From a virus, in IMG/VR virus record IMGVR_UViG_3300025154_000129, positions 1-53,908 of that record: a stretch of DNA of 53,908 nucleotides; one strand, given 5' to 3'. The position numbers and the translations under genes are program-made. Shown here in pieces: positions 12,601-53,908 of the stretch (position 1 is its first letter; every line of letters begins with the position of its first letter). Under the pieces are notes generated by a model. It searched no databases. It saw only the letters and a program-made list of their open reading frames with translations, and had not been told where the DNA came from.

Positions 12601-12617
12601 AGTATCCTTTTTGAAAT

Positions 12618-12669
12618 AATACCGCAAGAAGAGGACAATAGGAAACTAAAGTCTATCTTCTTCGGTATT
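12618..12669 (+). promoter_or_regulatory. Stem-loop upstream of the holin candidate
   Basis: Arms 12618-12632 and 12656-12669 pair over 14 base pairs with one bulged base; the loop is 23 bases. There is no T run after it. It ends 3 bases before the ribosome binding site region of the gene at 12686, so it could shape mRNA stability or translation timing. Confidence 0.4.
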
Positions 12670-12685
12670 AAATGGAGATATTGAA

Positions 12686-13129: not shown

Positions 13130-13169
13130 TAAGAAAATGAAAAATCTTTTGTAGTAAAAGGAGTGAAGT

Positions 13170-13496: not shown

Positions 13497-13507
13497 AGGA
13501 GTATCGA

Positions 13508-14089
13508 ATGAAAAGAATACCAGGCACTCAGCTCAAACAAGATCCTGTTGCAACTACAGCAGAAATGCAAGCAGGGGCAGAGACAAAACCACGAAGAGTA
13601 AGTCCTGTCCTTGTTTGGGAATCCATAGCTTCTTGGTGGTCTACAGTAGGCCGACTGGCTCCTGGGGACATCGGTGGTACGACGCCTGCCGCTGGCACAT
13701 TCACCACGCTGAACGGAGGCATAAAGCGGGAAGAAGTCCCGACCACCGGGAATCTAACGGTTCAGCAGATGCGTGGAACGCTCATCAGTAATTCGGGCCA
13801 GACCGTAGCCAACACGCAACAATGCCCAACGCTTACAGGGGAAATGAATGGGCTGGTGCAGGTCGAAACCGCAGGGGCGGGTGCATTCTACATCAAGACC
13901 GGCCCCAACGACCGACCTGGAATCTCATCCGGTGGGGTAATCACGTGGGGGAACAACGGCGATAAAGTTGGATTTGCGACTCCATCAGTTGGTGATTCTT
14001 TCACGTTTAAAACTATCAAGGTCGGTGTCGATGCCTTCGATCTCATAATTTATCCCGGCGAGGGTAATGTCGTGAACGGAGGCGCATAA
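13508..14089 (+). CDS. Tail fibre-like protein with GTTPAAGTFTTL motif
   Basis: 193 residues. Residues 55-70 carry DIGGTTPAAGTFTTL, a motif found again and again in phage tail fibres and their short homologues. The rest is beta-rich (QCPTLTGEMNGLVQVE, FTFKTIKVGVDAFDLIIYPG). The first 140 bases are AT-rich like the phage backbone; from about 13640 the sequence becomes GC-rich. This suggests that a phage-specific N-terminal anchor was joined to an exchanged distal part. A strong ribosome binding site (AAAGGAGTATCGA) precedes ATG 13508. Confidence 0.7.
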   Translation: MKRIPGTQLKQDPVATTAEMQAGAETKPRRVSPVLVWESIASWWSTVGRLAPGDIGGTTPAAGTFTTLNGGIKREEVPTTGNLTVQQMRGTLISNSGQTVANTQQCPTLTGEMNGLVQVETAGAGAFYIKTGPNDRPGISSGGVITWGNNGDKVGFATPSVGDSFTFKTIKVGVDAFDLIIYPGEGNVVNGGA

Positions 14090-15548: not shown

Positions 15549-15634
15549 GAGCATCCGTGCTCACAGTGGCTTTCGTTCTACTCCTGGCAGTCCCATTCCA
15601 GGCGGTAGACATCCGCCTGGAATGGGACTGCCAG
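15543..15634. terminator. Two hairpins at the point where + and - transcription meet
   Basis: A 7-bp stem with a 10-base loop (15543-15549 with 15560-15566) is followed by a perfect 22-bp stem with a 7-base loop (15584-15634). Neither is followed by a T run, so intrinsic termination is uncertain, but both structures read the same on either strand and lie between the last + gene and the last - gene. They may stop RNA polymerase or protect 3' ends. Confidence 0.35.
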
Positions 15635-15700
15635 TAAGAATGCGACCAGATACAAGCTACAGATCAGCACCGACCGGGGCCGCACCTGGGGTAGCTGTTT
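15545..15700 (+). pseudogene. Degraded secreted FnIII-like protein (copy 2) with perfect palindrome
   Basis: GTG 15545 opens a signal peptide (VRASVLTVAFVLLLAVPFQA) and VDIRLEWDCQ, then hits a stop at 15635. Shifting frame by one base restores NATRYKLQISTDRGRTWG, which matches copy 1 (DATGYKLQISTDN). It is thus a truncated, frameshifted relative of the gene at 11727-12103. The break coincides with a perfect 22-bp inverted repeat (15584-15605 and 15613-15634, 7-base loop). No distal part is left. Confidence 0.6.
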
Positions 15701-17269: not shown

Positions 17270-18197
17270 TTGTCGCTCCTTCTAAGATCTCTTGCATTAT
17301 GCTTTGATCGACACTATCGGGTTTTGTTTTGTCAAAAGCGTTTTTCAAATCCAAAGAGAAATCTAAACCTGATGTCTCCATATCTTTCTTTAGTTCCTCT
17401 TTGTAAACAAGTAATTCCTCATTCTTCTTTTTTTCTCTCTCAACCTTTTTCAGATCAAACACAAGAGAAGATTTTTCACAAGGAATAAAGATTTGTTCAA
17501 GCAGACCATTAAAAGTATCAAACACATAGAAACAAGGACGATGATCTGTTTGATCTGTTCCTTGTCTCATAATAGAACCTGCATTTATCAACCAAGCTCC
17601 ATCTGCTAAACCTGTAAGAGTTTGATGATTATCACCGGAAACAATCAAACTGTAATCAGGATATTTCCTCAGTAGTATGTTTGCTCTTTCTTCCCCGTCT
17701 TGGCCAAACCAGAGTTTTTCATGAACAACCATTCTGTGGGTAAGCAGGATATTGAAAGCATCAGGATCTTCTACTTGAGGAACTTCAGATCCCCATCCTG
17801 CTCCGTACACATTTGTTTCCTCATCCAACATGAAACAATCTTTGGTCATTAATTCGATTGCTCCACTTGTTCTTAGGTTCTCGATAGGAGTCCCTGTCAA
17901 GTCAGTCGAATGATACCTCTGATCGTGTTGTCCTTCTACTACAAGATGCTGAATTCCTTTATTCTTGTAAGTCAGGAACAACTCGGTGTACATATTGATT
18001 AATTTGAGCATCTGTTTCAAAGGTTGAATGGCTATGTCAAATAAGTCACCTCCATTTAAGATTGTTTTTATGTCATTTTCCAAAGCGTAGTTATAAATAA
18101 AAACAACCTTTTTGTATTGGGTGTAAAAGAAATCATCTATTCTATTCTCAGGTTTTGTAGACCTAAGATGCCAATCGTCTGTGCAGATAAGTTTCAT
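17262..18197 (-). CDS. SbcD/Mre11/gp47-like DNA exonuclease
   Basis: 311 residues from ATG 18197 (GGAGG upstream; the start overlaps the previous stop as ATGA). The metallophosphoesterase motifs are in order: CTDDWH, GGDLFD, EGQHDQ (in place of GNHD), LLTHRM and SGDNHQ. These bind two metal ions and cut DNA ends in the Rad50-Mre11 type complex. The C-terminal 60 residues are helical and can form the Rad50-binding segment. Genes for the two ATPase halves lie on either side. The family is firm; its partner set is inferred. Confidence 0.9.
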   Translation of the reverse strand: MKLICTDDWHLRSTKPENRIDDFFYTQYKKVVFIYNYALENDIKTILNGGDLFDIAIQPLKQMLKLINMYTELFLTYKNKGIQHLVVEGQHDQRYHSTDLTGTPIENLRTSGAIELMTKDCFMLDEETNVYGAGWGSEVPQVEDPDAFNILLTHRMVVHEKLWFGQDGEERANILLRKYPDYSLIVSGDNHQTLTGLADGAWLINAGSIMRQGTDQTDHRPCFYVFDTFNGLLEQIFIPCEKSSLVFDLKKVEREKKKNEELLVYKEELKKDMETSGLDFSLDLKNAFDKTKPDSVDQSIMQEILEGATNG

Positions 18198-20251: not shown

Positions 20252-21147
20252 TATTTAGTAACTCCCATGCAAGTTTTCCATTCCAAAACTTTCTCTGTTT
20301 TCAACATACTCACAAAACCATACTTATGGCACATTTGTTGGAACTTGCCCAATGACAAATCATCCTCTACTAAAGAAAATTCCCCTGTTCCTTCAAAAGG
20401 AAGTTTTACAAGACGAACATTCCTTTCAATTATTCTCTTTGAAGCAGAGGAGTCAATCAGTCTCTTTTTGCCGTCTCTTGCTGATAGTTTTTCATTGAGG
20501 TATTTACTTGCTGTTTTGTATCCTACATCAGGAATTCCATGCACTTCATCAGTATCACAACCTTTGATGCATAACAACTGCCACCATTGATCGGGTGTTA
20601 CTCCAAACTCCTCGTAAAGATCTGATTTCCTATACTTCTTTTTTGTCTTGATGTTGTACATATAAACGTCTTTTCCATTACCTTCGCTTAGCAGTTGGTA
20701 AAGATCTTTGTCAGATGATACAATGGCAATTTCTTTTTCGTAGGTGCGAACGATAGAGGCGACAATATCATCTGCTTCTAATCCTTCTTGAAAGAAAAGA
20801 TTTTTGAATCCCAACATAGGAAGAACAGCGTCTCGGATCTCATTGAATTGATCGTAGCAAACCTGATCGTAATATCTTTCCTGATCTGTTTTCTCTTTCT
20901 TCGCGTTGTTCCTCTTCAGTTTATATGTAGGATAGATCTCTCTTCTCAATGACTTCTCAGAGTCAAAAGCAAAAACAAAGTGGTTACTATTGAATTTCTT
21001 CGACAACGAAAACAGTTGAGAAATAAAGCTAAAGATTACACTGGTTTCTATTCCGTTGTTACTCAATCTGTTTGAAACCATAGCGTGCTTGGCTGTGTGC
21101 AGAATGTGAGAACAATCGACTAGAAGCATAGGAGTTGAACTTACCAT
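20251..21147 (-). CDS. 5'-3' exonuclease / flap endonuclease
   Basis: 298 residues. The FEN/5'-nuclease pattern is clear: VDCSHILH at the start, FAFDSEKSLRREIYPTYK with the conserved D and arch residues, EGLEADDIVASIV, AIVSSDKDLYQLL, and the helix-3-turn-helix region IKGCDTDEVHGIPDVGYKTA. The acidic residues bind two metal ions. Such enzymes remove RNA primers and flaps or resect ends during phage replication; here the polymerase gene lacks its own 5' nuclease domain, so this protein can supply it in trans. The gene overlaps both neighbours by a few bases. Confidence 0.92.
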   Translation of the reverse strand: MVSSTPMLLVDCSHILHTAKHAMVSNRLSNNGIETSVIFSFISQLFSLSKKFNSNHFVFAFDSEKSLRREIYPTYKLKRNNAKKEKTDQERYYDQVCYDQFNEIRDAVLPMLGFKNLFFQEGLEADDIVASIVRTYEKEIAIVSSDKDLYQLLSEGNGKDVYMYNIKTKKKYRKSDLYEEFGVTPDQWWQLLCIKGCDTDEVHGIPDVGYKTASKYLNEKLSARDGKKRLIDSSASKRIIERNVRLVKLPFEGTGEFSLVEDDLSLGKFQQMCHKYGFVSMLKTEKVLEWKTCMGVTK

Positions 21148-22217
21148 TTCGGCCTCCTTTGGACTTTAGCTTCATTTCTCATTTCATCCCATCTTTGTTG
21201 TATCTTAGATAAAAGCTCTAAATAAGCAGAGGGGTTTTCATCAAAAAAAGGTTCAAGCTTGTTCTTGCCTTGAAATCGTTCCCCATTCCAATCATACCAA
21301 GAACCTGAAGGAACAAGAATATCATACTCTAAAGCAAAACTAACCGCACTTCCGATGTTATCTATCCCATATCCATAAAGAATACGAAACTCAACAGGCA
21401 TACTGTAGATTGCAGCATGATTCTTTTCTACTTCAACATTGACATTCTTGCCTTGCTGCATTCCATTATCATGCTCAATACTTCCTCTTTCTTCCAACCA
21501 ATAAATGATCGTAGCTGCATGATCAAGAGCATGTCCCGCAGATCGAGTAAGTTTTCGTTCCCAAGGTTTTGCTCCTATCTTTGCTCTCACTTGAGAAATA
21601 ATGTGGAACACGCAATTGCATTCTTTAATAAGACCACTATTCTCTTTGAAGAAATATGAAAGCATTGTAGCAACACCCACTTTGTAGTCCTGTGCTCCTA
21701 CGCTACTCTTTTTCTTCGCATGTTTCTCTTCTCTTTTTGACAAGATTCCATCAAGACTGTCAGTTGTAAGAACCATCAGATCATATTTGCCCCTGTTTTG
21801 ATTCAAACAGTTTGTCGCCCAATTATACCAAGAATCAGAATCTTGAGTATGAACCCACTCAATCTCATCAACAGGCAGCCTATTATCTGCTGCAAGCTTG
21901 TAATCGAATTTGTTCTCAGGCTCGTTATATCCTATATAAACACTCTTTCCTTTTTTCTTGCCTTCATTGTACCAAGCTTGATTGATCACTTCACAAGCCA
22001 ACAAGGTTTTCCCGGTGTCTTTTGTTCCTATGCCATTGATTATTCTTCCTACTGGAAATCCTTTACCTACATTTCCTGACAAAGCAAGATTGAGCGTAGG
22101 ACATCCTGTGCTGACCCATTGAATCTCCTCTATCTGAGGTCGATTCCCTTCTTTGACATGACTCTCAATATCATTAACCGATTCAGATGTGGACTTTCTT
22201 CGTTTTACTATAGACAT
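21141..22217 (-). CDS. RecA/UvsX-like recombinase
   Basis: 358 residues from ATG 22217, placed 5 bases after AAGGAGAG. Walker A is GTKDTGKT (64-71). LMVLTTDSLDG is the Walker B region, and FHIISQVRAKIG followed by RSAGHALDHAATIIYW covers the DNA-binding loop region and the strand after it. RecA-like proteins pair single-stranded DNA with a duplex, a process phages use for repair and recombination-dependent replication. It sits between a 5' exonuclease and a gp32-like ssDNA-binding protein, its expected partners. Confidence 0.88.
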   Translation of the reverse strand: MSIVKRRKSTSESVNDIESHVKEGNRPQIEEIQWVSTGCPTLNLALSGNVGKGFPVGRIINGIGTKDTGKTLLACEVINQAWYNEGKKKGKSVYIGYNEPENKFDYKLAADNRLPVDEIEWVHTQDSDSWYNWATNCLNQNRGKYDLMVLTTDSLDGILSKREEKHAKKKSSVGAQDYKVGVATMLSYFFKENSGLIKECNCVFHIISQVRAKIGAKPWERKLTRSAGHALDHAATIIYWLEERGSIEHDNGMQQGKNVNVEVEKNHAAIYSMPVEFRILYGYGIDNIGSAVSFALEYDILVPSGSWYDWNGERFQGKNKLEPFFDENPSAYLELLSKIQQRWDEMRNEAKVQRRPKW

Positions 22218-22238
22218 CACCTCTCCTTATAAAAAAGA

Positions 22239-22574: not shown

Positions 22575-23654
22575 CTATCTCCTTCGTCTGCGAGCAACAA
22601 CTGGAGCTTCTGTTGTCTTTGTGGGTTCTTCTCTCTTTGTCTCTTCTTTCACAGGTTCTGTTTTTGTCTCTTCTTTTGTTCCCTTAAACTCCTTTGATTT
22701 TTCAGCACAAGCATCCCAAATTTTACACTTAGAACAAAGATTAGCAGGAAGTTCTTCGCAATCTTTTCCGAATGAACCTCCATGGGGACACTCAAGCTTT
22801 GTCTTCGTCTCTTGCGTAAATGCTTGATCTGTTACAGTTGTTTTCTCCTCCGTAGTTTGGGAAGCAGTTGAGTAAGTCTTGCCTGATGATTCTAGCGTTT
22901 CAGGAGCCTGATTCAAGATCTCATAGATTTCCTCCGCTGAAGGTTGAGGAAGAAGAGTCTCAAGAGAAAGAGCACTTGCTTGTTCTAGTATCTCTTGAGG
23001 AATATCCATCCTACGATCAAGAAACTTGTGCTCGGTGTATTTGGTACTTGTAGGACCTTTGCCTGTTCTTTTGAAATAACAAGTTTTGCCTTTCTCTTTT
23101 GAAGGGTGCATGAAAAGAATTGTTCCCCCACCGAAAGGGATCTTTGCAGCACCTTGAATGTCTTGCTCAAAAATATGCCAACTAGGCATCCAGAACTGAA
23201 CTCCTTTTTGTTCTTCAGCAGGGGCATTTCGCACCCAGATGTAATACATACTTCGATGCTTCGCTCGGATTCTATCAAGATACTCTTTGTTGAAAGAGGG
23301 CTTCAGCATTTCAGCATCACGAAACTCACAGATCGGACAACGCTTTCCCCATGTTCTCAAAGGACAAGTTACGAAATGTTCAAGAGGTCCTACTTTCTCA
23401 TGCCTGAAATAATCAACCGTATACGCCCATGTTCCTTTCTTATTGTTAGGGTGTAAATCAGTCTGCACTTTCCAAGGAACGATATCTATAGCATGTTCCC
23501 CTTCAGTGCATTTCCATTGAGGTCTGCAATTTTCAGGGAGAGGGAAAATCAATCCCCCTTGCCATTTTTGATTCCCTCCCCCTTCTTCTGCTCTTTCTAT
23601 ACTTTCCTGTTGAGATTTCTCAAGATCTTTTTCGAGTTCGGATAAATCAAACAT
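22575..23654 (-). CDS. Single-stranded DNA-binding protein, T4 gp32-like
   Basis: 359 residues. EHFVTCPLRTWGKRCPICE (about 92-110) provides His93, Cys97, Cys106 and Cys109, matching the zinc site of gp32-type proteins. It is embedded in the OB-fold core (SMYYIWVRN, FLDRRMD). A second cysteine/histidine stretch, CPHGGSFGKDCEEL...CSKCKIWDAC (about 285-315), is known from other phage ssDNA-binding proteins. The tail is unusual: after a Glu/Lys/Thr-rich linker it ends in VVARRRRR, whereas such proteins generally end in an acidic partner-binding tip. It lies next to the recombinase and replication genes. Confidence 0.88.
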   Translation of the reverse strand: MFDLSELEKDLEKSQQESIERAEEGGGNQKWQGGLIFPLPENCRPQWKCTEGEHAIDIVPWKVQTDLHPNNKKGTWAYTVDYFRHEKVGPLEHFVTCPLRTWGKRCPICEFRDAEMLKPSFNKEYLDRIRAKHRSMYYIWVRNAPAEEQKGVQFWMPSWHIFEQDIQGAAKIPFGGGTILFMHPSKEKGKTCYFKRTGKGPTSTKYTEHKFLDRRMDIPQEILEQASALSLETLLPQPSAEEIYEILNQAPETLESSGKTYSTASQTTEEKTTVTDQAFTQETKTKLECPHGGSFGKDCEELPANLCSKCKIWDACAEKSKEFKGTKEETKTEPVKEETKREEPTKTTEAPVVARRRRR

Positions 23655-35054: not shown

Positions 35055-35091
35055 TTATTCTCCAACAGAATAGTGAAACGGAAAGCAAAGG

Positions 35092-35130
35092 AAGATAGAG
35101 GCTTACCTATACTAAGAAAGCCTCTATCTT
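35092..35130. terminator. 13-bp perfect stem-loop before folE
   Basis: Arms 35092-35104 and 35118-35130 pair perfectly; the loop is 13 bases. It lies 10 bases after the stop of the AT-hook gene and 38 bases before the folE start. No long T run follows on the - strand, so it may be a weak terminator, a processing site or a stabilising 3' end. Confidence 0.45.
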
Positions 35131-35139
35131 AAATTGAAA

Positions 35140-39612: not shown

Positions 39613-41073
39613 CTATAATTTGTAACTTATTTTTTCTTTCAAATAGCCATTCTGTTTAAGATACCGAGCAAGCTCAAGGATCATCTTATCAGAGGATAAA
39701 TAGTACGCTTTCATTTGAGATATATCTTTGGTGTTCTGTAGTACCATATCCCAAAAACGAGAAGCTAGGGTTGTAGGAGTCCACTTTAAGCCCACATCAC
39801 CTATTAACAGAGTTTTGTTATCTTCGTAAAACTTATGGATTTTATCAGAGGTGGAAATGAAAGCGTTGATGCTATCGACTGGGAGTTTGACGTTCACACC
39901 ATTGCCTAACACATGCTTCTTGAATCCATCTTGTATTATGTTTGTTACAGAAGGGTGAAGATCTAATCTAGGTTTTCGGATATACTCAGGTTCATTATGA
40001 AGGTAATGCAGAAAGTTCGATTTTCCATGTCGAGCTTGACTGAATGGATCATACAGGAATTTATTGATTGTCATTGATGATATCTTTGTTTTATCTACAG
40101 GATAAACATCGGTATCAGTCAAAGCAGAGTGGAAGTTATCGACTGCTGTTTTCCATTCATTAAAAGTATAACATCTAACATGACCATTATCATATAAACC
40201 TTTGAATATCTTGCCTAATTCAAACTTCCTCAAACTCGCTATACATTCAGCGTAAGATTTTGTGTTTTCTCTAGGAACATGTAGTCCTAATGATTTCCAA
40301 TAATCAAACAGAGGTCGTATTCTTTCAGGTATTACAGGAGTGTCTTTTTTCTTATCTTTTTCTGCTGATTGCTGAGAAACAGCACTAGCAGAGTTCCTCT
40401 TTCTTTTTACTATCTTTATTTCAGAAAAGTCATCGGGGGACGACGCGCCGACAGGGGATGAATTTGAAAAGCTTTTTTCTTTTTCTTGCGTAGCTTCAGC
40501 GGAGCGAGAAAAAGTTTCTTCTTTTTCTTTAGAAAAAGAAGTTTTCTTTCTTGATATTATTTTAATTAGTATTCTTAGTGTCATGGGAGCTGATTTTAGC
40601 TCCCCTGTGTTTAGCTTTTCTAAAAGTAGTCCCTCGTTCTTTAGCTCTTGTTCAAGTTCCTCTTTAGAAGCTAAAGCTTTTAGCCTAGGGGGAAGATCAA
40701 CAATATACCCCTGTTTGTCTAGTTCTTGTATCTGCCCTGTCATAAAATCGAAATTAAAAGGAGAGGCAGAGTAGGCCATGAAACCCTGTCTGACTTTGTT
40801 TTTTTCTTTGTCTCGTATCACTAAAGGGATAAAGTAACCGTGTGCCATGAGTTCTTCTATTGCAGATTGAATCGCTGTTGTTCCTTCAGGACTCTCTTCT
40901 TTCAGTTTTGTTATGTATGTGTGCCAGATCTCATTTTTGTTGCTTAATAGCCTACATAAGACTCCTCTAGCTCTGTAGGAAAGATTTTTGTCTCTTAACA
41001 GATCATTGGGTATTTGGGTGTAGTTTTCTTTGGGGGAGCAGTTTATTAGATCAGGAAACGGAAGACTTGTCAT
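39613..41073 (-). CDS. Replication initiator-like protein with winged-helix N-terminus
   Basis: 486 residues from ATG 41073 (AGGAGAGTAAGA upstream). YTQIPNDLLRDKNLSYRARG and GVLCRLLSNKNEIW are the usual opening of phage replisome-organiser proteins, where a winged helix binds the origin. A long Lys/Glu/Ser-rich linker (about 190-265) follows, then a helical region (IRPLFDYWKSLGLHVPRENT) seen in helicase-loader-type proteins. It lies directly upstream of the DnaB-like gene. Origin binding and loading of the helicase are inferred from gene order and the N-terminal pattern. Confidence 0.7.
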   Translation of the reverse strand: MTSLPFPDLINCSPKENYTQIPNDLLRDKNLSYRARGVLCRLLSNKNEIWHTYITKLKEESPEGTTAIQSAIEELMAHGYFIPLVIRDKEKNKVRQGFMAYSASPFNFDFMTGQIQELDKQGYIVDLPPRLKALASKEELEQELKNEGLLLEKLNTGELKSAPMTLRILIKIISRKKTSFSKEKEETFSRSAEATQEKEKSFSNSSPVGASSPDDFSEIKIVKRKRNSASAVSQQSAEKDKKKDTPVIPERIRPLFDYWKSLGLHVPRENTKSYAECIASLRKFELGKIFKGLYDNGHVRCYTFNEWKTAVDNFHSALTDTDVYPVDKTKISSMTINKFLYDPFSQARHGKSNFLHYLHNEPEYIRKPRLDLHPSVTNIIQDGFKKHVLGNGVNVKLPVDSINAFISTSDKIHKFYEDNKTLLIGDVGLKWTPTTLASRFWDMVLQNTKDISQMKAYYLSSDKMILELARYLKQNGYLKEKISYKL

Positions 41074-41803
41074 TCTTACTCTCCTCTGCGTGAATCTTAC
41101 TGTGGCATGTAAAACAAACACAAACCAGATCGTCCATATGCTCTAGTTCTTTTCCTAGTATTTTGTAGGTTGTGTGGTGTGTATTCAGATTTGTGTTTTC
41201 ACCGCAGAGTGAACATCTGAAGTTGGACCTTCTTTTTACTTCATAGGAAATTGCTTTCCAATATGGGGTTTGTAAAAAATCTTGATACCCCATTGATTTT
41301 ATTGTCTTTAGTGCGCGATAGGAAAAATCTTTGTTATAAAGTAGGAGATTTCTTACCAATTGAAATCTTTCTCTTTTTTTGACATGATCTCGCCAATAAC
41401 TTAAGGGATCTAAGATAGTGGTAAGAGTTTCCTCTTTATCCCTGCGTTCGTCTTCTTCTCTTTTTTCTTGCTTTTTGCGTCTGTTTTCTTTTCTATCCTC
41501 TTCGCATTCTTTACACAACCAGATACTTTTATTTATAGAGGAAATGTAATTAAGTATTTCTGTTTTGGTTGCATCTTTGGGATATAATAGGTTACAATCA
41601 GCACAGAAAAACTCTATAGTGGAATGAATATCTCCTCTAGTTTGTTTGGTTGTTTTTTCAAATAGGAGTTTTTCTTTGCTTTTGAATTGGGATAAAAACT
41701 GAACGTCCTCAAATGATAAGTATGACCCTCTAGGTATTACAGGATCTGTTATAAATTGCATAAAATAAGAAACAGCATCCCTATCGAGGGTTGATTCTTT
41801 CAT
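41051..41803 (-). CDS. HNH endonuclease-like protein
   Basis: 250 residues. The C-terminal 80 residues contain YWKAISYEVKRRSNFRCSLC, then NLNTHHTTYKILGKELEHMD and VCVCFTCHSKIH: the two CxxC pairs and the HH motif of an HNH nuclease of the McrA type. The N-terminal part has another zinc-ribbon-like set (FFCADCNLLYPK, WLCKECEEDR) and a very charged helix. It overlaps the initiator gene by 23 bases. It could be a homing-type or a phage-defence/recombination nuclease; the start lacks a good ribosome binding site. Confidence 0.8.
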   Translation of the reverse strand: MKESTLDRDAVSYFMQFITDPVIPRGSYLSFEDVQFLSQFKSKEKLLFEKTTKQTRGDIHSTIEFFCADCNLLYPKDATKTEILNYISSINKSIWLCKECEEDRKENRRKKQEKREEDERRDKEETLTTILDPLSYWRDHVKKRERFQLVRNLLLYNKDFSYRALKTIKSMGYQDFLQTPYWKAISYEVKRRSNFRCSLCGENTNLNTHHTTYKILGKELEHMDDLVCVCFTCHSKIHAEESKNDKSSVS

Positions 41804-42210: not shown

Positions 42211-42242
42211 TATAATGAACATAAGATGATACGAACTGTCAA
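42211..42242 (-). promoter_or_regulatory. Candidate promoter for the winged-helix and HNH genes
   Basis: On the - strand TTGACA (42242-42237) is a perfect -35 box; the best -10 match, CATTAT, is 19 bases on, a long spacer. On the + strand TATAAT occurs at 42211-42216 without a good -35. The TTGACA box begins at the end of the large inverted repeat. Confidence 0.35.
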
Positions 42243-42296
42243 GCAAAAATATGTTAGAGAAAAAGATAGCACATCCTCTAACATATTTTTGCTTGA
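42239..42296. terminator. Perfect 21-bp inverted repeat, probable terminator
   Basis: Arms 42239-42259 and 42276-42296 are exact reverse complements, with a 16-base loop. On the - strand it starts 6 bases after the stop of the gene at 42303-42545 and runs into the candidate promoter of the next operon. The arms are AT-rich and there is no T run beyond them, so strong RNA folding, rather than a classic intrinsic terminator, is the safe statement. Confidence 0.55.
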
Positions 42297-42302
42297 TTCG
42301 TC

Positions 42303-46747: not shown

Positions 46748-46992
46748 TTCAGTTCCTTTTTTGCAAGTTCCATCAAGTTTTGTGGTTCAACCTCTTCAAA
46801 GTCTTCCGCTTTTTTTAGGCAGAAAGACATTAAGGTTTTGGCTTTCTTAGAAAGTTCAGGCTTGTTTATTTCCTCTTGTAGTATCAAGAGAGTTTCTGGA
46901 TCAAGACATTCAGATTGAATATCTTCCAATCTAGGGGAGAAAGTCTCCTCTGATTTCCATAGAATCTTGTAAGCGATTTCAAGATTGGTCAT
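46678..46992 (-). CDS. Hypothetical helical protein
   Basis: 104 residues, helical and charged (LEIAYKILWKSEETFSPRLE, LMELAKKELKWTRDKIREAK). ATG 46992 follows AGGAGAAGGAGAA. Its last 70 bases overlap the helicase start, which has its own site (AAAGGAACTGAA). No motif is recognised. Confidence 0.55.
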   Translation of the reverse strand: MTNLEIAYKILWKSEETFSPRLEDIQSECLDPETLLILQEEINKPELSKKAKTLMSFCLKKAEDFEEVEPQNLMELAKKELKWTRDKIREAKREVRMYLRSLSR

Positions 46993-47317
46993 TTCTCCTT
47001 CTCCTCACTATTACAGGTTCTTGATTGTTTCTTACACCTCTACGGGAAGCAACAAGATCATGGAATTGAGGACAGTTGATGCAAGTCTCTTCTTTTTGTT
47101 TGTACTTGTGGAAACAAACTTCCACTTTCATTCTGTACCCTGTGTTGTCGCAGAAAAAGTAGTTATGAATAGCAAAGTGTTTACAGGTTTCTTCATTTTC
47201 TGTGATAGGCTGTTCTTTGAAAGGACATAGCCGTAGGTGTGCATCGAATTCGTCTGTTCTTCGGTATCTCTTGGGTGTAGTCTCCCAATGCTCGCAATAT
47301 CTGCATATTTTTGCCAT
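46979..47317 (-). CDS. Cysteine-rich protein with basic C-terminal tail
   Basis: 112 residues. ICRYCEHW at the start, CPFKEQ, TCKHFAIHNYFFCDN, VCFHKYKQ and CINCPQFHD supply about nine cysteines and several histidines, enough for two zinc sites. The C-terminus NNQEPVIVRRRRNDQS resembles the ends of the ssDNA-binding protein (VVARRRRR) and of the protein at 49091-49450 (EEPVIVKRNR). ATG 47317 follows AGGAGGAATAA. The function is unknown. Confidence 0.6.
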   Translation of the reverse strand: MAKICRYCEHWETTPKRYRRTDEFDAHLRLCPFKEQPITENEETCKHFAIHNYFFCDNTGYRMKVEVCFHKYKQKEETCINCPQFHDLVASRRGVRNNQEPVIVRRRRNDQS

Positions 47318-47909: not shown

Positions 47910-48152
47910 TTATTTCAGGTTGCGTCGTTTTTTCATTTCTTTGTAATCAACAATGTCGCCTGATGGTATCATTTTGAACATTCCATCTTCCAAGGGATCG
48001 CAACCGTAATCTTCTCCCGGTATTCTTACTATGGGTTTAGCAATGTAAGTCTCGGGATCTTTCCCCATAGAAAAAGCCATGAGTCTTGTCTGGCCATCAC
48101 CTGTAGTATGATCAAAAGGATATAAGTGCTTGGGTTTTTTATTCTTGCTCAT
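47910..48152 (-). CDS. Hypothetical small basic protein
   Basis: 80 residues from ATG 48152, behind AGAAGGGAGAATTAAA, the same leader that serves several genes to the right. The N-terminus is basic (SKNKKPKHLYPFDHTTGDGQ), followed by a patterned middle (SMGKDPETYIAKPIVRIPGE) and a basic end (YKEMKKRRNLK). The large 18-bp stem-loop at 48166-48212 ends just before its ribosome binding site. The function is unknown. Confidence 0.55.
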   Translation of the reverse strand: MSKNKKPKHLYPFDHTTGDGQTRLMAFSMGKDPETYIAKPIVRIPGEDYGCDPLEDGMFKMIPSGDIVDYKEMKKRRNLK

Positions 48153-48165
48153 TTTAATTCTCCCT

Positions 48166-48212
48166 TCTAGTTTCATGCTATTAACTGTAATCTATAATAG
48201 CATGAAACTAGA
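48166..48212. promoter_or_regulatory. Perfect 18-bp stem-loop abutting a ribosome binding site
   Basis: Arms 48166-48183 and 48195-48212 are exact reverse complements with an 11-base loop. On the - strand the stem ends with CTAGA, directly followed by AGGGAG of the gene starting at 48152. It could end the preceding transcript, be cut by RNase III, or control access to the site. Confidence 0.55.
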
Positions 48213-48230
48213 TTACAAGATAGATTTTTA

Positions 48231-48455: not shown

Positions 48456-48529
48456 GTCTCAATCTTGCTTTCTTCTCATCTCTGAGATAGCTAGGAAAAT
48501 TAAATCCTTGCCCCTTCCTTCGATTTTCT

Positions 48530-48871
48530 CTAAGAGAATGAACTTTGACTCATCTCTCTTTTTGAGAGAAAGGATACATCTAAGTTTTTCTCTTGTATCC
48601 TCTTCATTGTACTGAGAAAGAAGTTGATGTCCTTCCACACAGCATCAATTTTCTTGTATCTCTTACCAAAAACAGTCTTTGCCGCTCCTTTTTCTGAGAT
48701 AATTTCTGAGATCCTGTAGTGACCTTTTCCGTTTCCGTCAAGAAACCAAGCTCCTACGTTATACGCCCAGATCCCTTCTTCTTTCTCAATGTAAACGTCT
48801 GTTTCTTTTCCAAAGAGTTCCGCAAACTCCTTGAATTTATTTTCCATCCTTTGGTTCTTTTTCCTCCTCAT
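48530..48871 (-). CDS. Hypothetical protein
   Basis: 113 residues from ATG 48871 (GAGGAGAGAAA upstream). The middle has a hydrophobic/aromatic pattern (EGIWAYNVGAWFLDGNGKGH) like a small beta domain, followed by helices (KIDAVWKDINFFLSTMKRIQ). The first 35 bases overlap the previous gene. The end of the gene contains part of the dispersed repeat seen at the left of the window. No family is recognised. Confidence 0.5.
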   Translation of the reverse strand: MRRKKNQRMENKFKEFAELFGKETDVYIEKEEGIWAYNVGAWFLDGNGKGHYRISEIISEKGAAKTVFGKRYKKIDAVWKDINFFLSTMKRIQEKNLDVSFLSKREMSQSSFS

Positions 48872-49090: not shown

Positions 49091-49450
49091 TTATCCTCCT
49101 AGCATGTCCAGAAAATTCAAACTTCTGTTTCTTTTGACAATGACAGGTTCCTCTTTTTTCTTTTCTTGTGATTTTGTCCATAGGTACACTTCCCAACAAT
49201 CTTGCAGAGTTCCCAGAGTAATCCTGATAATTTTTGTTGTTGTTTTAGAATCATCGGGGACAGGGAGAAGTACGTCTTTGCTGGAAGGCTTGATAGTCAT
49301 TCCTGTTCTAGCTTTGACGTACTTCAAAAATTCCAGATCATCCCAATCAAAATCGTATTCAGTTATTTTGACTAGAATGTCTGGTATTTGGCAAATAGTT
49401 ATAGGTTGTGGTCTTTTCCATCTTGTTTGACGGAATACAGAGTGAGCCAT
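49091..49450 (-). CDS. Hypothetical protein with basic C-terminal motif
   Basis: 119 residues. WKRPQPITICQIPDILVKIT, then DWDDLEFLKYVKARTGMTIK and TLGTLQDCWEVYLWTKS form an alpha/beta pattern. The tail KKKEEPVIVKRNRSLNFLDM resembles the basic end of the protein at 46979-47317. ATG 49450 follows GAGGAGTAGTAGT. The function is unknown. Confidence 0.55.
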   Translation of the reverse strand: MAHSVFRQTRWKRPQPITICQIPDILVKITEYDFDWDDLEFLKYVKARTGMTIKPSSKDVLLPVPDDSKTTTKIIRITLGTLQDCWEVYLWTKSQEKKKEEPVIVKRNRSLNFLDMLGG

Positions 49451-49454
49451 ACTA

Positions 49455-49652
49455 CTACTCCTCTTTTTTATACAGGTATTTTACAAAGACATAGCGCCAT
49501 CCATCAAAGTGCCGAAGGTAAGCAAGATCGACTTTGCCCTTCAGATTGCCCTTGTAAAATAACTCTGCTTTTTTCACAGTCATTTCCTCGGTTACTACTT
49601 TAATCTTTCCTTCCTCCATTTCAGGAGTTTTGAAACATAGCTGAACTCTCAT
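49455..49652 (-). CDS. Hypothetical small protein downstream of cassette 1
   Basis: 65 residues with a beta-rich pattern (MRVQLCFKTPEMEEGKIKVV, FDGWRYVFVKYLYKKEE). It starts behind GAAAGGAGAATTAAA, the leader of the 96-bp repeated unit (49653-49748) that also feeds the genes at 51347-51847 and 52899-53621. No family is recognised. Confidence 0.55.
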   Translation of the reverse strand: MRVQLCFKTPEMEEGKIKVVTEEMTVKKAELFYKGNLKGKVDLAYLRHFDGWRYVFVKYLYKKEE

Positions 49653-49748
49653 TTTAATTCTCCTTTCTCTCTCATTGTTAATTTCCTACTTCTAGCTTAT
49701 TCTAGTGCAGGAGAGAAAAGGCAGCGAAGCTGCCCTCTCTCTTACACA
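49653..49748 (-). repeat. 96-bp terminator-leader repeat, copy 1
   Basis: This 96-bp unit lies between the repeat-protein gene 49749-50618 and the next start. It holds an intrinsic terminator (49720-49734) and a leader ending in GAGAGAAAGGAGAATTAAA. Copies of the same length occur at 51848-51943 and 53622-53717. TAGAAT (about 18 bases after TTCGCT of the hairpin) is a possible -10 box. Confidence 0.75.
49710..49740 (-). terminator. Intrinsic terminator, copy 1
   Basis: On the - strand GGCAGC, TTC, GCTGCC (49734-49720) is followed by TTTTCTCT and preceded by AGAGAG that can extend the stem. It follows the repeat-protein gene. Confidence 0.75.
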
Positions 49749-50618
49749 CTAGACCCAAGCAGGATTTCTATTCTCAGTAATCATAAACAAATCCCAGAGG
49801 GTCTTGTCAACAATCTTGTTATACTCTGCCCTTGCAGGATCGACAATCTTGTCAAACTCTGCCCTTGCAGCATTGACAATCTTGTCACGCTCTGCCCTTG
49901 CAGCATTGACAACCTTGTCAAACTCTGCCCTTGCAGCATTGACAATCTTGTCAAACTCTGCCCATGCAGCATTGACAATCTTGCCAAACTCTGCCCTTGC
50001 AGCATTGACAATCTTGACACACTCTGCCCTTGCAGGATCGACAATCTTGCCAAACTCTGCCCTTGCAGGATCGACAATCTTGTCAAACTCTGCCCATGCA
50101 GCATTGACAATCTTGTCAAACTCTGCCCTTGCAGGATCGACAATCTTGTCAAACTCTGCCCTTGCAGGATCGACAATCTTGTCACGCTCTGCCCTTGCAG
50201 GATCGACAATCTTGTCACGCTCTGCCCTTGCAGCATTGACAATCTTGTTATACTCTGCCCTTGCAGCATCGACAATCTTGTCAAACTCTGCCCTTGCAGC
50301 ATCGACAATCTTGTCACGCTCTGCCCTTGCAGCATCATTCAACAACCCTACAGGGCATCCCATGCCTCTAAACTTTCCCGCTTTGATCGCTTCAACGATT
50401 TCAGCGGGAAAGTTTAGAGGCGTACTGAAATCAGTACACTCTCTCTGTACCCCACCTTCAAAACCCCCATAGAACCAACGCAATGCACCATGGCCTACAA
50501 GATCATCATCGTCCCCGCAATGCTCGCGGAGTTCGATGCCTCTCTTGCTCGCCAAGTCCGCCGATGTTAGAAAATAATTCTTACCGTCTTTTTCAATCCA
50601 AGAAACAAATTCACACAT
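49749..50618 (-). CDS. 11-residue tandem-repeat protein, copy 1 (16 repeats)
   Basis: 289 residues. Residues 1-94 form a globular start (MCEFVSWIEKDGKNYFLTSA, GHGALRWFYGGFEGGVQREC). Residues 95-270 are 16 tandem copies of an 11-residue unit of the type DAARAEFDKIV, with changes at the F/Y/R/C, D/N/G and A/P positions. Residues 271-289 are a fixed end (DKTLWDLFMITENRNPAWV). Eleven-residue periods are typical of long right-handed helical coils. Similar phage proteins exist but have no known function. A second copy (51944-52582) and a partial third (53718-53908) share start or end. ATG 50618 follows GAAAGGAGAATTAAA. Confidence 0.8.
   Translation of the reverse strand: MCEFVSWIEKDGKNYFLTSADLASKRGIELREHCGDDDDLVGHGALRWFYGGFEGGVQRECTDFSTPLNFPAEIVEAIKAGKFRGMGCPVGLLNDAARAERDKIVDAARAEFDKIVDAARAEYNKIVNAARAERDKIVDPARAERDKIVDPARAEFDKIVDPARAEFDKIVNAAWAEFDKIVDPARAEFGKIVDPARAECVKIVNAARAEFGKIVNAAWAEFDKIVNAARAEFDKVVNAARAERDKIVNAARAEFDKIVDPARAEYNKIVDKTLWDLFMITENRNPAWV
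49809..50336 (-). repeat. Tandem 33-bp coding repeats, 16 units
   Basis: Sixteen consecutive 33-bp units code the 11-residue repeats. Several units are identical in DNA, others differ at a few codons, as expected from recent expansion and slippage. Because the period is a multiple of three, the copy number can change without shifting the frame. Confidence 0.9.
50364..50421. repeat. 19-bp inverted repeat inside repeat-protein gene, copy 1
   Basis: Arms 50364-50382 and 50403-50421 are exact reverse complements with a 20-base loop. They lie inside the coding region for residues 66-85 (STPLNFPAEIVEAIKAGKFR). The same structure is kept in copy 2. It would form a stable hairpin in the mRNA. Confidence 0.8.
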
Positions 50619-50710
50619 TTTAATTCTCCTTTCTCTCTGGTTTGGGTTTGATACTTCGCCTCACAACACTTGAGCCTGACGAACGGTGTTTTGCTCGCAG
50701 GCTCCTTGCG

Positions 50711-50908
50711 CTAAGAGGCAGGATTCAATCTTGCGTTTATCAGAGACAATCGGAATCTGAAAGCATCTGTTTCTTTTCCAAAGTATGCAATAATACCTGT
50801 TTCGTCTGTAACAGCGTGCCAACTTTGTATTGCAGAGTCAGACATTTCGTTTTCCCATTGGTAAGGATCTATGACCGAAATTTCTTCCAAAAGATCATTC
50901 AAGTTCAT
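50711..50908 (-). CDS. Hypothetical small acidic protein
   Basis: 65 residues. LNDLLEEISVIDPYQWENEM, then WHAVTDETGIIAYFGKETDA and FRFRLSLINARLN suggest a compact alpha/beta fold. ATG 50908 follows GAAAGGAGAAATTAG. A 7-bp stem (GAGCCTG with CAGGCTC) lies in the gap after it, before the repeat-protein gene. The function is unknown. Confidence 0.55.
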   Translation of the reverse strand: MNLNDLLEEISVIDPYQWENEMSDSAIQSWHAVTDETGIIAYFGKETDAFRFRLSLINARLNPAS

Positions 50909-50921
50909 CTAATTTCTCCTT

Positions 50922-51122
50922 TCAATAACTCACTTTTCTGTAAAGAAGGTCATCGAACAGAACCATAATTTCCCCTGTTTCTGTGATAACCGCTCTACTG
51001 TTCACGTCACTTACAACATAAGCCCTAGACCAGCGAAGTCCTCCTTCTTTTGATCCTTCAAGTTCGTAAACATCATCCCCAGGCATCAAATTTTCCCATC
51101 GAACTTGTTCATAATGGGACAT
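50922..51122 (-). CDS. Hypothetical small protein
   Basis: 66 residues from ATG 51122, which overlaps the preceding stop (TGATG) behind AAGGAGAAT. WENLMPGDDVYELEGSKEGG and RAVITETGEIMVLFDDLLYR have the alternating beta pattern of a small barrel. No function is evident. Confidence 0.55.
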   Translation of the reverse strand: MSHYEQVRWENLMPGDDVYELEGSKEGGLRWSRAYVVSDVNSRAVITETGEIMVLFDDLLYRKVSY

Positions 51123-51310
51123 CAATTCTCCTTTTTCAGTATAGCTTCGACAGTAGTTCGATAGGAAAGTTCAGGATCGGGAGTGCAGGGGATCTGATCT
51201 TTCCCTTCTTTCCAGTGCTCGATCAAACGATCCCAAAACTCTGCCGTTGCTTCCAGATCCTCTTGACTAACATCTTCAAACGATCCGTCCTTCAACTGCA
51301 CTCTTTCCAC
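51122..51310 (-). CDS. Hypothetical small helical protein
   Basis: 62 residues from GTG 51310 behind AGGAGGAATAGA. The product begins ERVQLKDGSFEDVSQEDLEA and is acidic and helical. It overlaps the next start. The function is unknown. Confidence 0.5.
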   Translation of the reverse strand: MERVQLKDGSFEDVSQEDLEATAEFWDRLIEHWKEGKDQIPCTPDPELSYRTTVEAILKKEN

Positions 51311-51346
51311 TCTATTCCTCCTTCTATTCTCCTTTAAGTTATTTGC

Positions 51347-51847
51347 CTACTCTATGAGCCGTTCTTGATGGATGATTTTTGCTTCTCTTGCCTTCTTGCC
51401 AAACTGTTCTACAAATGAAGACAAATCTCTAACCAGTCCTTGCAGATGTGGAATGTATTCATCAAACAACCACATCATACTTTCTTTTGCTTCTTCCAAA
51501 GATATTTCAGGGTCTGCACAAGGAACTTTCTTAAATCTGGGCGCTCTCCTTTTTATCTGAGATTCATCTTTTCCGTTATTTTCTTTTCGTATAGCAGGAG
51601 GGCGAGAAACAAAAGCTCGGTCGATGTTGTCCAGTTCAGCTCTTTCAGGACATCTGTAAATATCTTTACCATCCATAGTGATAACACCTGTTCGACTTAT
51701 GTTTCTGAGATAGGCTGATACAGTGGCGTAGTTGCCCCCGCTGTATTCGTGGACTTCTTTGGTAGTGAATCGTCTTACCCCTTTAAGCTCTACAATTACT
51801 TTGAGGGAGTCAATAGTCCTGTCAAGAACGGTACCCTTTCTTATCAT
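51347..51847 (-). CDS. Winged-helix DNA-binding protein candidate
   Basis: 166 residues. VRRFTTKEVHEYSGGNYATV, then SAYLRNISRTGVITMDGKDI and YRCPE form a winged helix (helix-turn-helix plus wing), with basic residues suited to DNA contact. The middle is a basic linker, and residues 110-166 are helices (SMMWLFDEYIPHLQGLVRDL). It starts behind the 96-bp leader (copy 2). A role as a regulator of the accessory genes is likely but inferred. Confidence 0.65.
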   Translation of the reverse strand: MIRKGTVLDRTIDSLKVIVELKGVRRFTTKEVHEYSGGNYATVSAYLRNISRTGVITMDGKDIYRCPERAELDNIDRAFVSRPPAIRKENNGKDESQIKRRAPRFKKVPCADPEISLEEAKESMMWLFDEYIPHLQGLVRDLSSFVEQFGKKAREAKIIHQERLIE

Positions 51848-51943
51848 TTTAATTCTCCTTTCTCTCTCATTGTTAATTTCCTACTTCTAGCTTATTCTAG
51901 TGCAGGAGAGAAAAGGCAGCGAAGCTGCCCTCTCTCTTACACA
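51848..51943 (-). repeat. 96-bp terminator-leader repeat, copy 2
   Basis: Same unit as at 49653-49748. The terminator stem is at 51915-51929 (GGCAGC with GCTGCC on the - strand, T-rich tail), and the leader ends in GAGAGAAAGGAGAATTAAA before ATG 51847. It follows the stop of the second repeat-protein gene. Confidence 0.75.
51910..51934 (-). terminator. Intrinsic terminator, copy 2
   Basis: Stem GGCAGC-TTC-GCTGCC (51929-51915, - strand) with TTTTCTCT after it, identical to copy 1. Confidence 0.75.
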
Positions 51944-52582
51944 CTAGACCCAAGCAGGATTTCTATTCTCAATAATCATAAACAAATCCCAGAGGGTCTT
52001 GTCAACAACCTTGTCAAACTCTGCCCTTGCAGGATCGACAATCTTGTCAAACTCTGCCCTTGCAGGATCGACAACCTTGTCAAACTCTGCCCTTGCAGGA
52101 TCGACAATCTTGTCAAACTCTGCCCATGCAGCATTGACAATCTTGTCACGCTCTGCCCATGCAGCATCGACAATCTTGTCATACTCTGCCCTTGCAGCAT
52201 ACCTAACCTTGTCATACTCTGCCCTTGCAGCATTGACAATCTTGACACACTCTGCCCTTGCAGGATCGACAATCTTGTCAAACTCTGCCCTTGCAGCATC
52301 ATTCAACAACCCTACAGGGCATCCCATGCCTCTAAACTTTCCCGCTTTGATCGCTTCAACGATTTCAGCGGGAAAGTTTAGAGGCGTACTGAAATCAGTA
52401 CACTCTCTCTGTACCCCACCTTCAAAACCCCCATAGAACCAACGCAATGCACCATGGCCTACAAGATCATCATCGTCCCCGCAATGCTCGCGGAGTTCGA
52501 TGCCTCTCTTGCTCGCCAAGTCCGCCGATGTTAGAAAATAATTCTTACCGTCTTTTTCAATCCAAGAAATAAATTCACACAT
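51944..52582 (-). CDS. 11-residue tandem-repeat protein, copy 2 (9 repeats)
   Basis: 212 residues from ATG 52582 (GAAAGGAGAATTAAA upstream). The N-terminal 94 residues match copy 1 except for Ile instead of Val at position 5. Nine repeat units follow (residues 95-193), including a variant unit ending in KVR and one with CVK shared with copy 1. The last 19 residues are the same apart from one change (MIIENR instead of MITENR). Head and tail are thus conserved while the repeat block varies in number and order, a sign of recombination among copies. The function is unknown. Confidence 0.8.
   Translation of the reverse strand: MCEFISWIEKDGKNYFLTSADLASKRGIELREHCGDDDDLVGHGALRWFYGGFEGGVQRECTDFSTPLNFPAEIVEAIKAGKFRGMGCPVGLLNDAARAEFDKIVDPARAECVKIVNAARAEYDKVRYAARAEYDKIVDAAWAERDKIVNAAWAEFDKIVDPARAEFDKVVDPARAEFDKIVDPARAEFDKVVDKTLWDLFMIIENRNPAWV
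52004..52300 (-). repeat. Tandem 33-bp coding repeats, 9 units
   Basis: Nine 33-bp units in frame. Some are identical to units in copy 1; the order differs, as expected if blocks are exchanged between the copies. Confidence 0.9.
52328..52385. repeat. 19-bp inverted repeat inside repeat-protein gene, copy 2
   Basis: Arms 52328-52346 and 52367-52385 with a 20-base loop; same sequence and position as in copy 1. Confidence 0.8.
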
Positions 52583-52653
52583 TTTAATTCTCCTTTCTCT
52601 CTCGTTTGGGTTTGTTGGATCATACACTAGATCCGTTCTAGGGCATGAAGGAA

Positions 52654-52671
52654 AGCATAATTTCTTATGCT
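52654..52671 (-). terminator. Hairpin after the gene at 52684-52902
   Basis: On the - strand AGCATAA, GAAA, TTATGCT (52671-52654) is followed by TTCCTTC. The stem of seven and the four-base loop fit a weak intrinsic terminator between this gene and the repeat-protein gene. Confidence 0.5.
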
Positions 52672-52683
52672 CTCCCTTATAAC

Positions 52684-52902
52684 CTAGCTTGCCATGCTAA
52701 TCAAAAACTGCCGATCTTTTCTTCTGAAGTGGACTTTGAATGGTTTCATCTCATACCAAGAACTTTGACCTGATCCGTTCCTGATATTATCACAGATTTC
52801 ACAAAGTTGCTTTTGTTGTTCCGCGATGCAGTTCTTTTTTGATACTAATCCGAGTGAATTGACATACTTCAGACAATCATCAAAAGACTCGATTAGGATC
52901 AT
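52684..52902 (-). CDS. Hypothetical small protein
   Basis: 72 residues. ILIESFDDCLKYVNSLGLVS, then QQKQLCEICDNIRNGSGQSS and KPFKVHFRRKDRQFLISM. A CEIC pair and two more cysteines could bind a metal. ATG 52902 follows GAAGGGAGCTGTC and overlaps the preceding stop by 4 bases. The function is unknown. Confidence 0.55.
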   Translation of the reverse strand: MILIESFDDCLKYVNSLGLVSKKNCIAEQQKQLCEICDNIRNGSGQSSWYEMKPFKVHFRRKDRQFLISMAS

Positions 52903-53621
52903 GACAGCTCCCTTCTTCTTTCACCTGCAATAGGCTTCGTAAGAGAAAGTTTGCTCCCTGCTTCAGCTCCTCTCATCCAAGCCTCTCTTGATCCGGATGC
53001 TTTCCAAGGTCTTCCTGTTTTCACATTAGGAAACTCTTGTTTCAGGTACTTATCGACCGTATCTTTTTTAACCACGATCAGAGCTTTGCACGTTGAAATT
53101 TCGTTCCTTCTTTGGTACATGTCAGCAAGTCTCCAAGTGATCTTTGTTACCATCCCTTGCTTGAAAGATTCTCTGTCTTTTCCTTCTCTGGGAACTTCGA
53201 TTTTACTGATTTTCCCGACAGACCTTCTTACATACAAGTGCATCCACTTTGCGATTTCAACGTCGCCTTTCTGGCCTATGAAAATGATGCCCCACTCACC
53301 CCAAGTCCCTCCGTACTTTCTGTTTAGGGTGATACAGTCGAAAGCTTTTGAGATGCCTGCAGCGAGAACAGATTCCCACATCTGGAATTTGCCCATTCCT
53401 CCTACTACTTCGTTGCACATTCCTTTCATCAATGCTTCCTCTTGGGTCATAGGAGATCCATTTTCAGGAATGTCAAGCATTGATAAAGAATATTTCTCCA
53501 TGATAGAGGTTGCTTTCTCCATTGCAAGTTGCGCCTCATGTTCATTCGGCGATGTAGCAAGGGCAAGAAGTTTCTGGAGAAGGTTTGTGATTTTGGTTTT
53601 CTCTTCCGGTGAAAGTTTCAT
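52899..53621 (-). CDS. DUF2786-family protein
   Basis: 240 residues. The first 50 residues, KITNLLQKLLALATSPNEHE, then AQLAMEKATSIMEKYSL, are the DUF2786 pattern (helical, with the conserved AxxSPNEHEA core). The rest, including WESVLAAGISKAFDCITLNR and FIGQKGDVEIAKWMHLYV, matches the domain that often follows it in phage proteins. No catalytic role is known. It begins behind the 96-bp leader (copy 3). Confidence 0.8.
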   Translation of the reverse strand: MKLSPEEKTKITNLLQKLLALATSPNEHEAQLAMEKATSIMEKYSLSMLDIPENGSPMTQEEALMKGMCNEVVGGMGKFQMWESVLAAGISKAFDCITLNRKYGGTWGEWGIIFIGQKGDVEIAKWMHLYVRRSVGKISKIEVPREGKDRESFKQGMVTKITWRLADMYQRRNEISTCKALIVVKKDTVDKYLKQEFPNVKTGRPWKASGSREAWMRGAEAGSKLSLTKPIAGERRRELS

Positions 53622-53717
53622 TTTAATTCTCCTTTCTCTCTCATTGTTAATTTCCCACCTCTAGCTTATTCTAGTGCAGGAGAGAAAAGGCAGCGAAGCT
53701 GCCCTCTCTCTTACACA
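53622..53717 (-). repeat. 96-bp terminator-leader repeat, copy 3
   Basis: Third copy of the unit, with a few base changes around the leader. The terminator stem is 53689-53703 and the ribosome binding site serves ATG 53621. Confidence 0.75.
53684..53710 (-). terminator. Intrinsic terminator, copy 3
   Basis: Stem GGCAGC-TTC-GCTGCC (53703-53689, - strand) and TTTTCTCT, as in the other two copies. Confidence 0.75.
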
Positions 53718-53908
53718 CTAGACCCAAGCAGGATTTCTATTCTCAATAATCATAAACAAATCCCAAAAGGTCTTGTCAACAATCTTGTTATACTCTGCCC
53801 TTGCAGCATACCTAACCTTGTCATACTCTGCCCTTGCAGGATCGACAATCTTGTCAAACTCTGCCCTTGCAGGATCGACAATCTTGTCACGCTCTGCCCT
53901 TGCAGCAT
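53718..53908 (-). CDS. 11-residue tandem-repeat protein, copy 3 (partial, runs off the window)
   Basis: Only the 3' part lies inside the window. The stop is at 53720-53718, preceded by the fixed end DKTFWDLFMIIENRNPAWV, in which Leu is replaced by Phe. Before it are four repeat units (AARAERDKIV, DPARAEFDKIV, DPARAEYDKVR, YAARAEYNKIV), the third and fourth showing the KVR/YAARAE junction also seen in copy 2. The start and the remaining repeats lie beyond position 53908. Confidence 0.8.
   Translation of the reverse strand, partial: AARAERDKIVDPARAEFDKIVDPARAEYDKVRYAARAEYNKIVDKTFWDLFMIIENRNPAWV

Follow-up and report, generated by a model that had tools for sequence, protein, structure and literature searches.

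Repeated genes for an 11-residue-repeat protein and their hairpin leaders in a viral contig

Repeat genes and the block that carries them

The IMG/VR virus record IMGVR_UViG_3300025154_000129 was analyzed over its whole length of 53,908 nucleotides (nt), which is referred to here as the window. Its right end carries, on the minus strand, two full genes for a protein made of tandem 11-residue units and a third such gene truncated at the end of the contig. Behind each copy come a 96-base-pair (bp) spacer and then a different gene. A preliminary description, made from the sequence alone, had reported three occurrences of this arrangement, and all three were confirmed.

Copy 1 (49749..50618, minus strand, as are all features of this section) encodes 289 amino acids (aa), and its array (49806..50333) holds 16 units of 33 bp, or 11 residues each. 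Copy 2 (51944..52582; 212 aa) consists of an N-terminal domain (N domain; residues 1-94), an array of nine 33-bp units (52001..52297) and a cap. Copy 3 (53718..53906), whose 5' part is missing at the contig end, retains four units of 11 aa and the C-terminal cap. As had been described, copies 1 and 2 differ by one residue in their first 94 (residue 5, V/I), and their unit counts are 16 and 9.

The genes behind the spacers are all different. The gene behind the first (49455..49652) encodes 65 aa and belongs to no family, that behind the second (51347..51847; 166 aa) may encode a winged-helix protein, on weak matches only, and that behind the third (52899..53621; 240 aa) has DUF2786 and DUF7168 domains and falls in phrog_421. 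A further gene of 72 aa (52684..52902) has no family. A close relative of the DUF2786 gene was searched for and none was found; hence, there is no empty-site comparison.

Spacers 1 (49653..49748) and 2 (51848..51943) are identical over all 96 bp, and spacer 3 (53622..53717), which likewise combines a hairpin leader with a start-site sequence, is 98% identical. The spacer ends in 20-23 nt (AGAGAGAAAGGAGAATTAAAATG) that also precede copy 1 (50616..50638) and copy 2 (52580..52602). Thus, the duplicated block carries this sequence at either end and runs between successive copies of the start-site sequence GAGAAAGGAGAATTAAAATG. Identity between copies begins 20-29 nt before the ATG of the repeat gene and ends precisely at that of the gene behind. 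Five exact copies of the 23-nt start sequence were counted in the window, whereas shuffles give an expectation of 0.00, which excludes chance. Wherever the 96-bp unit occurs, a repeat gene stands in front of it.

Copies in a second contig

The 96-bp unit was found in one other IMG/VR contig, IMGVR_UViG_3300025009_000416 (20,233 bp; G001 below). This contig starts inside the unit of a repeat gene with 14 units, copy B, and also carries a copy A of 13 units, behind whose 96-bp unit lies a gene of 279 aa. It thus supplies two further copies and another gene behind the unit, the kinds of evidence that the preliminary description had proposed to look for in related phages. Three more copies of the start sequence in G001 bring the number of starts that bear it to eight, and four different genes in all stand behind a unit, three in the window and one in G001. 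The copy number of at least five is a lower bound, because each of the two contigs breaks off within a copy or its unit. The earlier proposal of a duplicating module thus stands with regard to a multiplied block of repeat gene and 96-bp leader that ends at the next ATG and has four different genes behind it; it is not supported in its stated form with regard to the terminator that the module was said to contain, as discussed below.

The cassettes are the only DNA common to the window and G001. G001 carries the terminase, portal, protease and capsid genes, and the window begins at the tape-measure gene. A related contig, IMGVR_UViG_3300048839_001360, carries homologs of these head genes and, downstream of them on the same strand, a homolog of the tape-measure gene of the window. 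Because of these complementary genes, this gene order and the agreeing composition of the window and G001, the two contigs are likely to derive from a single genome or from very close ones. Window positions 4471-37392 are matched at 100% identity by a third contig, IMGVR_UViG_3300025154_001404, which stops short of the cassettes.

A short basic motif (IVKRNR / VVARRRRR type) was observed, mostly near protein ends, in seven unrelated proteins of both contigs, with 0.1 expected in shuffled proteins. Five are encoded in the window (49091-49450, 46979-47317, 39613-41121, 22575-23654 and 21141-22220) and two in G001 (11915-13549 and 17732-18007). The motif may serve these proteins as a common tag for binding or targeting, and its presence in both contigs supports their origin from one genome.

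A 71-nt repeat (77% identical) occurs at the left end of the window (10-80) and near the cassettes (48483-48553), and G001 has a similar stretch in its locus L014 (6530-6600, minus strand). The repeat encodes a short C-terminal peptide of SLPLPS type. Between the cassettes and the head genes of G001, about 2.3 kb (L014 3900-6240) lack any open reading frame longer than 90 aa and are rich in the short repeats GAAACATTTTGAAAC and GTCTCAAATTA; this region is possibly an origin or a regulatory region.

Hairpin leaders

One long hairpin lies ahead of all eight starts that bear the start sequence (five in the window and three in the other contig). In most leaders a short internal loop separates an inner stem of about 12-14 bp from an outer one of 5-9 bp, and the stem sequences differ. 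The 96-mer folds at -32.1 kcal/mol (z -4.33). The leader hairpin of copy 2 (52619..52678, minus strand) has a different sequence and a similar two-tier shape, and that of copy 1 is at 50659..50718 on the same strand. Copies 1, 2, A and B have leaders that differ from one another in sequence, and the start sequence is the only part that they have in common. A related leader outside the cassettes (48150..48218, minus strand) consists of a hairpin ending in CTAGA followed by AGGGAGAATTAAAATG; it precedes a small gene and is not associated with a repeat gene.

The spacer had initially been described as containing a terminator. This assignment is doubtful. The unit contains a 13-bp hairpin with a U4 tract at most, which is paired inside the stem. 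A U4 tract beside a GC stem is found only in the units and in the leader of copy B, and the equivalent leaders of copies 1 and A have no U tract. A coding-strand scan did not list the hairpin of the 96-bp unit, and it found no sigma-70-type promoter at the leaders, the host and its promoter type not being identified. A search of Rfam returned nothing. The long duplex with a small internal loop that the leaders share resembles RNase III processing sites. A terminator, a processing site and a stability element are all possible roles for the leader hairpin.

Long hairpins are also present elsewhere in the window. A perfect 22-bp hairpin (15579-15638; -49.5 kcal/mol) near the junction of two transcription directions is possibly a bidirectional terminator, and further long hairpins lie among the leftward genes at 42239-42298 and 35079-35138. 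Hairpin leaders may therefore be general in this phage.

The repeat-protein family

Profile searches recovered 35, and then 52, IMG/VR loci (about 50 contigs) that encode related proteins, and searches of metagenome-assembled genomes (MAGs) added 6 family loci, several of them from Patescibacteria. Family members share a domain of about 95 residues (MC[ED]F[VI]SW, GHGAI, NFP), repeats that vary in number, and a cap that ends in FWxLF..NR..W. The repeat protein conforms to this definition, as the N domain (MC[ED]F[VI]SW), the repeats and the FWxLF..NR..W cap are all present. No model in Pfam, PHROG or NCBIfam covers the N domain, tblastn found no relatives of it in INPHARED phages or PLSDB plasmids, and a literature search found no paper carrying the repeat sequence. 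The family appears to be undescribed in the searched literature and databases.

Most contigs carry one family gene, and 2-4 are present in contigs G027, G028, G032 and G020. The repeats are mostly 11-mers, with 33-35-residue or MORN-like repeats in some members instead. In five loci on phage contigs (L047, L048, L050, L054 and L055) the N domain is joined to repeats of 33-35 residues (DLRYIVCYAPDKWAEKAWQQLLKQKPTN), and N-domain relatives are found in Patescibacteria MAGs. In another locus, L008, the repeat protein (2680-3192) contains LDVLEYAIFIRK, a stretch that also occurs in the next gene (3206-3436), as though part of the neighbor had been taken up into the array.

AlphaFold2 modeling of copy 2 gave a predicted local distance difference test (pLDDT) score of 93 and a predicted template-modeling (pTM) score of 0.78. 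The units are modeled as an antiparallel helical hairpin (residues 95-147 and 152-201), and the protein is thus predicted to combine a small N-terminal domain with a helical hairpin of 11-residue units. For the N domain alone (pLDDT 86), no match in the Protein Data Bank was reported, which is no proof of a new fold. Structural matches of the model in a DALI-like search (best Z 9.4) were rejected as generic long-helix similarity below the level that is informative for helical bundles. Pfam and PHROG matches to the repeat region (cystatin, S49, DivIVA and tape measure) were likewise set aside as compositional. PADLOC returned nothing.

The part of the gene that codes for the N domain contains, in every full copy, a 58-nt palindrome with perfect 19-bp arms (50364..50421 in copy 1 and 52328..52385 in copy 2, both minus strand); locus L007 is also listed with it. 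Family member L028 has a 13-bp version of the palindrome, and the conserved peptide NFP..GKF is itself nearly palindromic. The 58-nt form has possibly been perfected by template switching.

Variation within and between arrays

Every codon alternative seen among the 51 internal units of the five cassette arrays alters the residue, and none is synonymous. Thirteen arrays from other phages have 11 silent and 77 amino-acid variants, where about 23 silent variants are expected. Variation in other phages is also confined to particular places in the unit. In 15 such arrays, unit positions 1, 3, 7 and 10 have a mean within-array heterozygosity of 0.45, 0.43, 0.38 and 0.45, respectively, and the other seven positions one of at most 0.10, a contrast that none of 20000 position permutations matches. 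Unfiltered contiguous units were used for this test, because counts anchored by regular expressions bias the anchored positions. Three of the 15 arrays came from a later search and have the same variable positions. On a three-turn helix of 11 residues, positions 3, 7 and 10 would form one stripe.

Array length changes between close relatives. Loci L041 and L042 are 99.5% identical over 3457 bp, yet encode proteins of 171 and 226 aa, a difference of five units. Length also differs in the pair G027/G028 and in the group L036/L037/L040.

Origin and possible role of the cassettes

These observations could be explained if the right end of the window is a leftward accessory-gene region of a tailed phage, in which multiplication has produced at least five copies of the gene for a repeat protein from an undescribed phage family and has left unrelated small genes between the copies. 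Blocks would be duplicated, deleted or converted, with reading frames kept intact, by homologous recombination wherever start sites, leaders or arrays are identical. Each hairpin, together with a strong ribosome-binding site (RBS), would serve as an mRNA leader through RNA processing, stabilization or weak termination. If units recombine freely, array length would shift fast, and residue differences would be kept at fixed unit positions with few silent ones. The binding surface would presumably be kept variable by an opponent, such as a host factor, a defense or a rival, through diversifying selection. This explanation, in which a repeat gene multiplied by recombination encodes a fast-evolving binding protein, is the best available, and we give it about an even chance of being correct. 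The place of the genes in the leftward non-structural block suggests that such a protein may have an early anti-host role.

Several points weigh against this explanation. The deficit of silent variants is moderate in the other phages and does not reach significance in the cassette arrays alone (P = 0.17). In the window arrays, positions 1, 3, 6, 7, 9 and 11 are the variable ones, which do not exactly match those of the other phages; therefore, the variable positions shift by lineage. Because the family has no model in Pfam, PHROG or NCBIfam, it is the pattern of variation and gene position that argues for an anti-host role, and a continuous surface that tolerates E/K/R/Q or W/L exchange, coupled with concerted evolution, could mimic the picture of an arms race. 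The copies have about 280 nearly identical bp in common, and each contig terminates within a copy or the unit attached to it, so that the assembly may have joined different copies into chimeras. Finally, a repeated RBS (score ≥12) is found with 13% of repeat genes and 6% of control gene pairs, a weak excess (P = 0.02). Insertion at the RBS with duplication of the RBS, which loci L025, L033 and L130 had suggested, was therefore rejected as a family-wide rule, since control gene pairs show the repeat nearly as often. In L025, the repeated RBS is not specific, because several unrelated genes share it.

An alternative is neutral expansion, in which slippage and recombination amplify a tolerated helical spacer protein, gene conversion homogenizes the copies, and the variable positions are exposed sites. 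Segmental duplications of units are indeed visible inside arrays (copy A and L029), the exchanges are mostly among E/K/R/Q and W/L/R by single-base changes, and the copies differ from one another in short patches, as gene conversion would leave them. However, silent changes should then match or exceed the amino-acid rate, whereas 11 are seen and 23 expected. Moreover, positions 4, 5, 8 and 11 are also likely to be exposed but are nearly invariant, and 1, 3, 7 and 10 vary across lineages. We regard neutral expansion as unlikely, although it is the most credible of the alternatives.

The 96-bp unit might instead be the driver, a mobile regulatory cassette like those of T4-type phages discussed below, which spreads as a promoter and terminator with the repeat gene as its passenger. 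No other stretch is as conserved as the unit (98-100% over 96 bp), four different genes lie behind it, and other leaders with similar hairpins and an RBS are present in the genome. However, the unit is never seen without a repeat gene in front; the leaders of copies 1, 2, A and B have only the start sequence in common, and the coding-strand scan shows no promoter at them. A unit-driven origin is accordingly rated as improbable. It is very improbable that the copies are an assembly artefact in which variants of one locus were wrongly joined at repeats: although both contigs, like the related contigs of L022, L044, L045 and L112, end inside arrays, copies or units, within one contig, copies 1 and 2 are flanked on either side by unique sequence that differs between them, as are A and B, and the unrelated phages G027, G028 and G032 also carry 2-4 paralogs.

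The block may be mobile. Among 14 records that include the window and G001, and that may be fragments, no match was found to the reverse transcriptase (PF00078) expected of a diversity-generating retroelement or to the tyrosine recombinase (PF00589) expected of an integron-like gene cassette. A multiplied block that ends at the start codon of unrelated genes would be a clear case in which recombination at start sites could add or remove accessory genes without harming reading frames.

On a decidedly speculative reading of the sequences, which we consider doubtful, the 11-residue arrays could be modular recognition devices that are re-programmed by recombination within arrays and between gene copies. 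If so, residues at fixed unit positions (1, 3, 7 and 10 in most phages) would determine what a unit binds, and the order and number of units would set specificity, following a changing target in the host or a rival.

In a widespread and undescribed phage protein family, nearly identical repeats that vary at fixed positions, together with a unit number that differs between near-identical phages, are a strong sign of a molecular arms race. The partner in it, if found, would name a new host target or defense.

Comparison with known systems

The repeat arrays recall other proteins with nearly identical tandem repeats. In TAL effectors, such repeats vary in number, and residue variation is confined to fixed positions of the unit. 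The arrays described here share these features, but consist of 11-residue alpha-helical units in phage proteins with a different N-terminal domain. Assignment as TAL effector-like fails, because the units are 11 residues long and are predicted to form long continuous helices, not two-helix repeats of 33-35 residues with variable residues 12/13. Nearly identical tandem repeats of variable number, with residue variation at fixed unit positions, are also described in the NLR proteins of Podospora (PMC12222747). The same likenesses and differences apply to these proteins, and no homology of the repeat protein to Podospora NLRs or TAL effectors was found. As regards the general kind of repeat array under diversifying selection, arrays in other phages show its features, namely fixed variable positions and more amino-acid than silent variation, and the silent deficit in the window is not significant.

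The start sequence resembles the Start-Associated Sequence (SAS) of Cluster K mycobacteriophages, a short conserved sequence that directly precedes the start codon in some non-structural genes (PMC3203893). SAS genes have large intergenic gaps, and many have inverted repeats upstream; in the extended SAS (ESAS), the sequence of the inverted repeat is conserved, and the authors doubt that it forms a hairpin (PMC3203893). Here, too, a conserved short sequence precedes the starts of a subset of genes. In contrast, the inverted repeats in our leaders are unrelated in sequence, yet all fold. The defining SAS sequence GGGATAGGAGCCC gave no match with up to two mismatches; therefore, the start sequence is not a SAS.

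A further parallel in arrangement is with the promoter(early)-stem-loop cassettes (PeSLs) of T4-type phages (Arbiol et al. 2010, doi 10.1093/gbe/evq006, and Comeau et al. 2014, doi 10.1093/gbe/evu129, as cited in PMC4503421). PeSLs are short, near-identical regulatory stem-loop units repeated between unrelated accessory genes of one region, and they are reported to mediate gene shuffling between related phages. The 96-bp unit is alike in that several near-identical copies lie between accessory genes of one genome (three in the window and more in G001). It differs in that the gene for one repeat protein is always attached to it and its end coincides with an ATG, and in that no promoter was detected (host and promoter type not being identified) and the terminator is doubtful. 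As for shuffling of the PeSL type, one other contig alone carries the unit. Because promoter and terminator are not established, the unit cannot be filed as a PeSL, but it may work like one, and likewise like SAS/ESAS. The regulatory module represents a variation on a known type, and the repeat-protein family is the stronger lead.

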